Assembly: GCA_018400515.1 (NCBI GenBank)
Contig: JAGYMR010000062.1
Location: 1 to 12,374 of the forward strand
Source of the DNA: Tangfeifania sp.
GTDB lineage: Bacteria; Bacteroidota; Bacteroidia; Bacteroidales; Prolixibacteraceae
Length of the DNA stretch: 12,374 bases
Direction: 5' to 3'
Below, in pieces: positions 3,653 through 4,789 of this stretch. The notes under the pieces were generated by a model. The model searched no databases and had not been told where the DNA came from. It worked only from the letters and a program-made list of their open reading frames with translations. Every line of letters begins with the position of its first letter. Position 1 is the first letter of the stretch. Both the position numbers and the translations under genes were made by a program.

Positions 3653-4789
3653 TTATTCCTCATCACCTTCCCCGTTGTCATCTTCGTCATCGTCATCATC
3701 ATCATCATCATCATCATCATCATCATCATCATCATCATCATCATCATCATCATCATCATCATCATCATCATCATCTCCGTCACTATCAACCTCTTCCGTT
3801 GAGGTCAGCTGAAAATCCTGCTCCGTTTCTTCTCCGGCCATCACCGTGACATCTGCCGATGCTTCATCAAATTCCTCTTTGCCGCACGTCAGCGAATAAT
3901 CACCGGGCGGAATGCCGGTCATCCGGTAATATCCTTCATCATCGGTTGTGGCCGAAGTGATGGTGTCATTTGTTCCCTGGATCAGGGTCAGAAGGGCATT
4001 CTCTATTTCATCCTCCTCATCATCGGTAACCATTCCGGAAATTTTTCCCGTTTCCGTTTCCACATGAGCCACTGCACGTACCACCGGTTTAAAGATAAAG
4101 CCCTGGATTTTTCCCGGACCGTGGTGCATATTGCCCCGCAGGATAAAGGAACGGCTGACATCGAAATCGATCAGCACCTCCGCATCGGCACCTTCAACTA
4201 CCTCCAGGGGGGGATCCAGAATAATTTTCAGTCCACTGGCATGGCCGCTGGGAACTTTCAGGTCAAATGTGTTTTGCTCGCCCGCTCCCAGAAGGGATTC
4301 ATCGAGAACAATGCTTGCTCCCACAACATGGAGCCGGATTTGCCGGTAGGTTCCTGCAGGAACGTCGGTTTCGGCCAACACCTGGGTAACGCCGTTTCTC
4401 AGATCAAGAAGATTAACCGTAACGGTGTCTTCCAGTTCGAGCATAACGAAAGAGTCATCTCCTTCGCCATTGTCATCATTATCATCGTTGCCGTTACCGT
4501 TGCCGTTGTCATCTCCATTGCCATTGCCGTTGTCATCATCATCATCTTCCATTTGCGGTTCATCGTCCTCATATTTCAGTAATTGAACCCAGTCGATGGA
4601 AATATTGGCCTCTTCCACCCATTCAGCGGGGAAGGGTGCATCTGTAAGTTTTATGGTTACACGTCCCGTCCCCGATTTTTCAGGCACACCGTTCAGATCA
4701 TCCTCTCTAAGATCATCACAACCGAAAACCATTCCCATGAGTAAGAGAATGATTCCGGCCCAAAATCCACTTTTCACATACTTTTTCAT
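3653..4789 (-). CDS. DUF4382 lipoprotein with polyaspartate tail
   Basis: A 378-residue predicted lipoprotein. A signal segment (1-23) ends in VFGC; Cys24 is the likely lipidated residue, although Phe at -2 is atypical. DDLREDD follows, an acidic cluster like the surface-export signals of Bacteroidota lipoproteins. Residues about 42-245 fit DUF4382 (GRVTIKLTDAP, NLLDLRNG, VPAGTYRQIRLHV, LKIILDPP), interrupted at 81-112 by an Asp/Asn/Gly-only insert. Residues 248-328 form a carboxypeptidase-regulatory-like beta-sandwich (ISGMVTDD, GYYRMTGIPPGDYSL). The tail is 30 consecutive Asp (339-368) followed by EDDNGEGDEE. The chain is very acidic. It is the last gene of the receptor/FecR locus, 21 bases after fecR, preceded by a clear Shine-Dalgarno and followed by a terminator. 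DUF4382 has no established function to my knowledge; binding of Ca2+, other cations or mineral surface through the acidic tracts is an inference. Confidence 0.85.
   Translation of the reverse strand: MKKYVKSGFWAGIILLLMGMVFGCDDLREDDLNGVPEKSGTGRVTIKLTDAPFPAEWVEEANISIDWVQLLKYEDDEPQMEDDDDDNGNGNGDDNGNGNGNDDNDDNGEGDDSFVMLELEDTVTVNLLDLRNGVTQVLAETDVPAGTYRQIRLHVVGASIVLDESLLGAGEQNTFDLKVPSGHASGLKIILDPPLEVVEGADAEVLIDFDVSRSFILRGNMHHGPGKIQGFIFKPVVRAVAHVETETGKISGMVTDDEEDEIENALLTLIQGTNDTITSATTDDEGYYRMTGIPPGDYSLTCGKEEFDEASADVTVMAGEETEQDFQLTSTEEVDSDGDDDDDDDDDDDDDDDDDDDDDDDDDDDDDDEDDNGEGDEE
3693..3775. repeat. Uninterrupted trinucleotide microsatellite (GAT)27 encoding polyaspartate
   Basis: The plus strand is a perfect TCA/ATC trinucleotide repeat for 83 bases. 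In the reading frame of the lipoprotein this is 27 identical GAT codons (3775 down to 3695), followed by GAC GAT GAC for a total of 30 Asp. No synonymous GAC interrupts the pure part. The unit is a multiple of three, so slippage would change tail length without breaking the frame. Confidence 0.97.
4454..4549. repeat. Degenerate Asp/Asn/Gly-coding repeat inside DUF4382
   Basis: This encodes residues 81-112 of the lipoprotein, composed of Asp, Asn, Gly and a few Glu, with NGNGNG occurring twice (87-92 and 95-100). Unlike the C-terminal tract, the codons are mixed: Asn as AAC and AAT, and Gly as GGC, GGT and GGA. It therefore looks like an older, diverged repeat. It lies between the first strands of the DUF4382 domain and the LELEDTVTVNLLDL strand, probably as an exposed flexible loop. 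Confidence 0.85.

Follow-up and report, generated by a model that had tools for sequence, protein, structure and literature searches.

The closest described counterparts of the gene considered here are the Bacteroidota lipoproteins that combine a DUF4382 domain with a carboxypeptidase regulatory domain (CarboxypepD_reg), for example the protein of Mariniphaga sediminis (P0001, locus L064). The window, i.e., the whole 12,374-nucleotide stretch of Tangfeifania sp. DNA that was analysed, encodes a protein with the same domain families and with a Cys at a like N-terminal place. In both loci an extracytoplasmic-function (ECF) sigma factor, a TonB-dependent receptor and a FecR-type anti-sigma factor occur in the same order, with galM and an SDR gene flanking them. 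The L064 protein differs in having a second regulatory-type domain. The Bacteroidota proteins in general differ in that the tail is short or absent, with at most five Asp residues in a row among the 170 homologues listed, whereas the protein in the window carries 30 consecutive Asp residues close to its C-terminus. The parts of this arrangement (a DUF4382 lipoprotein, a FecR/sigma operon and a trinucleotide array) are all of known kinds. Their combination, a near-terminal 30-Asp run encoded by (GAT)27, is a rare variant, and we regard it as a striking singleton and not as a new kind of system. A literature search of titles and abstract openings, which is no proof of absence in print, turned up no poly-Asp-tailed lipoprotein from bacteria, and DUF4382 is named in only one paper within the open full-text library that was searched.

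The repeat tract and its carrier

The coordinates of all features are collected in Table 1. The lipoprotein gene is an open frame of 378 residues without an internal stop. Direct reading of the codons confirmed 27 GAT codons followed by three further Asp codons in an intact frame, as stated in the preliminary description. The protein does not, however, end in the Asp run, as had been claimed there, because ten further codons (EDDNGEGDEE) precede the TAA stop; their codon use is mixed and the residues remain acidic. Among the 48 residues beyond position 330, 41 are acidic and none is basic. The period-3 purity extends over 83 bp (3693–3775). On the plus strand no ORF of at least 60 aa overlaps the tract, which rules out an overlapping gene of that size there.

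Table 1. Features of the lipoprotein gene and its neighbours (positions in the window)
Feature	Positions	Strand	Basis or remark
Terminator-like hairpin, 14 pairs then T7	3581..3614	minus	39 nt past the stop codon
DUF4382 + CarboxypepD_reg lipoprotein gene, 378 aa	3653..4789	minus	Pfam
Last ten codons, EDDNGEGDEE	3656..3685	minus	3' of the Asp run
30 consecutive Asp codons (27 GAT + GAC GAT GAC), residues 339–368	3686..3775	minus
Pure (GAT)27 array	3695..3775	minus	codon reading and TRF
Transthyretin-like carboxypeptidase regulatory domain, residues 250–329	3803..4042	minus	PF13620, 65.4 bits (cut-off 32.3)
DUF4382, residues 41–235	4085..4669	minus	PF14321, 93.2 bits (cut-off 25)
Codon-mixed acidic insert within DUF4382, residues 73–112	4454..4573	minus
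Signal peptide and lipobox up to Cys24	4718..4789	minus	by eye, no predictor run
FecR-type anti-sigma factor	4811..5656	minus	PF04773, 57.6 bits; PF16344, 48.3 bits
TonB-dependent outer-membrane receptor with N-terminal FecR_C/STN-like segment	5887..8535	minus
ECF sigma factor, start codon uncertain	8578..9201	minus	TIGR02985, 133.5 bits (cut-off 126.4)

Under the dinucleotide content of the window the expected count of such a tract is about 10^-47. In the related loci (the 80 homologue-bearing genome loci retrieved first, 1,025,198 bp) 17 perfect trinucleotide arrays of at least 4 units were found and every one of them has exactly 4 units, so that a chance origin was rejected. Ordinary codon bias was likewise rejected as the source of the GAT purity: GAT accounts for 34 of the 48 Asp codons elsewhere in the gene and for 86 of 131 in eight neighbouring genes, and at these frequencies 27 GAT codons in a row have probabilities of 9e-5 and 1.2e-5, respectively. 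None of 395 genomes sampled evenly across the phylum of M. sediminis (G001, the genome that holds L064), one genome per species, contained an exact (GAT)12; repeats may be broken or collapsed in their assemblies. The reversed-array control pattern gave 7 hits in G208 and 22 in G479, some of which may overlap; these two genomes of the phylum carry long arrays of a different trinucleotide. For comparison, the trinucleotide arrays of E. coli K-12 have at most five units according to the available text of a review (PMC7015867).

The assignment of the regulatory domain is based on both the Pfam PF13620 profile and the transthyretin-like fold. A fimbrillin or adhesin identity of the Bacteroidales fimbrillin-like type was considered for DUF4382 and gave weak fold matches only. 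The lipobox, recognized by eye, reads VFGC24 and continues as CDDLREDD. A Cys lies within 4 residues of the Cys24 column in 199 of 201 aligned sequences (that of the window included), and at least two of the 8 residues after it are acidic in 186 of these 199. In the available text of one report (PMC5080379), the surface-export signals of Bacteroidota are described as acidic after the cysteine; CDDLREDD is acidic but does not have the leading S, Q or K of the signals described there. The lipobox Cys and the acidic residues behind it bear out the earlier prediction of a lipoprotein, and the carrier is predicted to be an outer-membrane lipoprotein that is probably surface-exposed.

The internal acidic insert is codon-mixed, as had been noted before, and has a pLDDT below 50 at residues 85–110 of the structure model. 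The tail is also modelled with low confidence and has no regular structure except a four-residue helix at its start, which lends no support to its earlier description as a rod. Insert and tail have the 7-mer DDNGEGD in common (4457–4477 and 3662–3682, minus strand), with codons that differ at three third positions only, and a shared word of this length was reached in 18 of 20000 shuffles of both pieces. That the tail might be a duplicate of the insert is a lead only, and convergence under the same composition is possible.

Gene neighbourhood and the tails of homologues

The FecR gene lies 21 bp upstream of the lipoprotein gene, and the same-strand gaps are 230 bp between FecR and receptor and 42 bp between receptor and sigma factor. 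The receptor matches the Plug profile with 34.7 bits (cut-off 23.9), whereas its STN match (13.9 bits) is below the cut-off of 28.4. The FecR_C profile scores 21.9 bits with the whole protein and 25.8 bits with a 132-residue N-terminal piece (cut-off 24.4). No solved relative of this receptor was found at E ≤0.01. The hairpin behind the lipoprotein gene has the longest stem of the 12 terminator-like sites in 3300–9600; shuffled sequences contain 9.3 such sites (sd 3.4), so that their number is no excess. The lipoprotein gene is probably the last of one transcription unit with the sigma factor, receptor and FecR genes.

L002 (Tangfeifania), L003 and L064 (Mariniphaga) share with the window the order galM-sigma-receptor-FecR-lipoprotein-SDR-hypothetical-esterase, by which the window is assigned to Prolixibacteraceae or its vicinity. 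With 71–79% identity at the galM, SDR and esterase genes, these three loci are not strain-level relatives. The C-terminal ends of the three syntenic orthologues are EDDDEENVDE, VSETEAVEESAE and PVPEDED, respectively. In three other loci (L022, L030 and L045) two FecR genes flank the receptor, giving the order sigma-FecR-receptor-FecR-lipoprotein. Elsewhere in the window (1032–1571, minus strand) a 179-aa protein has 74–77% identity to its counterparts in L002, L003 and L064 and matches neither a Pfam nor an NCBIfam family at E 0.001.

Homologues were sought twice, with the protein or its core as query, and the best 120 of 317 and the best 120 of 383 matches comprise 170 distinct proteins. Their identity to the window's protein is at most 63%, and their runs reach 5 residues for Asp alone and 13 for Asp and Glu together; no close relative with a different repeat number is among them. 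Two long homologues stand apart: the alignment of P0004 (533 aa) suggests two tandem units of DUF4382 and regulatory domain, and P0011 (530 aa) may resemble it in this respect. The net acidity of the last 12 residues is at least 6 in 31 of the 170 listed proteins, 3–5 in 37 and less in 102. A value of at least 3 was found in 46 of the 74 listed homologues with at least 50% core identity, versus 22 of the 96 below that level. The last 12 residues of these 68 acidic-tailed proteins contain 273 Glu and 113 Asp, and the short acidic tail of close homologues is mostly Glu-rich. The preliminary description had proposed to examine whether orthologues keep a polyacidic tail of differing length. Acidic tails are indeed frequent in the nearest relatives, although they are short and mostly made of Glu; a general lack of such tails, which that description had counted against its own reading, holds for the wide family (102 of 170 below a net value of 3) and not for the close group.

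A family-wide search gave matches at E 0.001 in 96 of 140 genomes, many of them to the regulatory domain alone. Thirty of these loci were fetched, which with the 80 above makes 110 genome loci with a homologue. Of their 94 distinct proteins, 15 are encoded directly downstream of a FecR relative, 72 are not and 7 lie too near a contig end to tell. The longest Asp run among the 94 is 3. After three operon members with an extra domain had been left out of the tail count, a net tail acidity of at least 3 (tails up to 60 aa) was found in 6 of 12 operon members and in 3 of 72 others, while the median number of acidic residues in the insert is 6 in operon members and 2 in the others. The corresponding p values (0.003 for tails and 2e-7 for inserts) both overstate the significance, as relatives are not independent by shared ancestry. 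The net tail charge is 0 in four of the 12 counted operon members and 1 in two, and the tails of four operon members (L004, L005, L049 and L060) are one or two residues long. Queries with the tail alone were uninformative: none of 128 candidates in the protein database reached E ≤10, and the search of the 140 family genomes (0 of 140) also missed a known 35-Asp protein of genome G117.

Origin and possible role of the aspartate run

The pure GAT codons, together with the absence of such a run from the homologues examined, point to recent slippage, which supports the earlier suggestion of a recent expansion. In the course of events that we infer, replication slippage would recently have grown a few GAT codons, lying in an already acidic C-terminal tail, to (GAT)27. 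The carrier, probably produced from the same operon as the ECF sigma factor, the TonB-dependent receptor and the FecR anti-sigma factor, would then display the enlarged and presumably disordered tail at the surface as a flexible polyanionic bristle. Its length could change in three-base steps without a frameshift, so that charge would be tuned and expression would not be switched on or off. The role would be a generic electrostatic one: close to the receptor the bristle might attract divalent cations or basic ligands; alternatively, it might keep the lipoprotein soluble and extended. This account, a short acidic disordered tail lengthened by slippage into a bristle with a generic role, is the one that we favour, at somewhat better than even chances. 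As the related tails are Glu-rich and not Asp-rich, it does not follow that a selected feature was extended by the expansion.

Long GAT arrays are also found in viral sequences. Arrays of (GAT)16 or longer occur in 30 of about 2.9 million viral contigs, and 22 of the 31 arrays are in the poly-Asp frame if the longest open frame is taken as a rough criterion. In three of these contigs (L093, L094 and L101) the 400 bp upstream are identical and the poly-Asp arrays have 26, 31 and 26 units, respectively. Another pair with 99% identity (L096 and L105) has 16 versus 20 units, and both members of a near-identical pair (L097 and L100) have 16 units. These differences indicate that such arrays can vary in length in nature, in genomes other than that of the window.

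A second long Asp run came to light in the family-wide search of the 140 genomes of the same bacterial family, in which the tail matched an unrelated protein. The gene at L141:4648–5391 (G117) encodes a 247-aa protein with an export-type N-terminus and 35 consecutive Asp residues specified by mixed GAT and GAC codons. Relatives of this protein occur in 6 of the 140 genomes, with weak matches in G066 and G134 that lie over the Asp run and contain stops, and G117 alone has 32 matching stretches, i.e., a multicopy family. In the 13 other sequences taken from fetched loci, to which most of the G117 copies do not belong, two miss the Asp site and the remaining 11 show no more than 2 consecutive Asp. 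Exported proteins of this group thus acquire long poly-Asp runs sporadically. The L141 run is old enough for its codons to have become mixed, so that such runs can persist. The case fits tolerance and possible usefulness alike and decides neither.

Tolerance is the basis of the principal alternative, in which the array is a neutral or mildly harmful microsatellite: slippage would have enlarged it where a disordered C-terminus tolerates this, it would have no function and it would shrink again. We consider this unlikely, albeit a serious contender. It would account for the singleton status of the run among the 170 listed homologues, for pure codons that imply little time under amino-acid selection, and for the absence of the 35-Asp loop of the other secreted protein from the 11 relatives that cover the site. 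It does not readily account for the coincidence of the array with a tail that is acidic in most close homologues or for the residues past the run, which remain acidic and in frame, and the persistence of the L141 run also argues against it.

It is doubtful that the array acts as a length-tunable charge dial, by which a population would adjust stepwise how negatively charged a surface lipoprotein is while the gene is never off. If this were true, the affinity for cations, minerals or basic peptides would be changed by steps, in a lipoprotein that would sit in a receptor/anti-sigma/sigma signalling operon. A part in sensing is more doubtful still. Here the tail would capture a specific cation, mineral or basic ligand and pass it to the co-encoded TonB receptor, thereby switching FecR and the sigma factor. 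The sigma-receptor-FecR-lipoprotein order with its terminator-like hairpin, the stronger acidic insert of operon members and the interaction of poly-Asp with calcium in asporin (PMC6771297) and aspein (PMC9496343), as given in the available text of these reports, are consistent with such a role. The near-tailless orthologues with the same gene order (L004, L005, L049 and L060) would nevertheless still need to signal, and neither a solved relative of the receptor nor an STN match above the cut-off lends support to it. Lastly, long pure repeats are prone to sequencing and assembly error and the true repeat number might be much smaller or larger, but an artefact is very improbable because the 83-bp tract is below common short-read length, the frame is intact on either side and an acidic tail is common at this site in close homologues.

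Comparison with other repeat-bearing systems

The L141 protein resembles that of the window in its long Asp run, its export-type N-terminus and the absence of the run from the relatives compared, and differs in that the run lies in an internal loop, has mixed GAT and GAC codons and belongs to a different protein family. Asporin and aspein are likewise secreted and have Asp runs that interact with calcium, and the length of the D-repeat of asporin is polymorphic (8–19) according to the available text of PMC6771297. They are, however, animal matrix proteins for which no homology is claimed, and the run of asporin is N-terminal; calcium binding by the window's Asp run would be a compositional analogy only. 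The sigma factor gene beside receptor and FecR genes recalls the FecI/FecR/TonB-receptor type of cell-surface signalling. With the phase-variable simple sequence repeats of bacteria the array shares a long pure repeat that is expected to slip. Bacterial repeats this long and pure are rare and have been discussed mostly as on/off switches, and unlike these the three-base in-frame unit of the window cannot toggle the frame. If the proposed role is true, the in-frame repeat would act as a graded version of such switches by adding charge to a surface lipoprotein.
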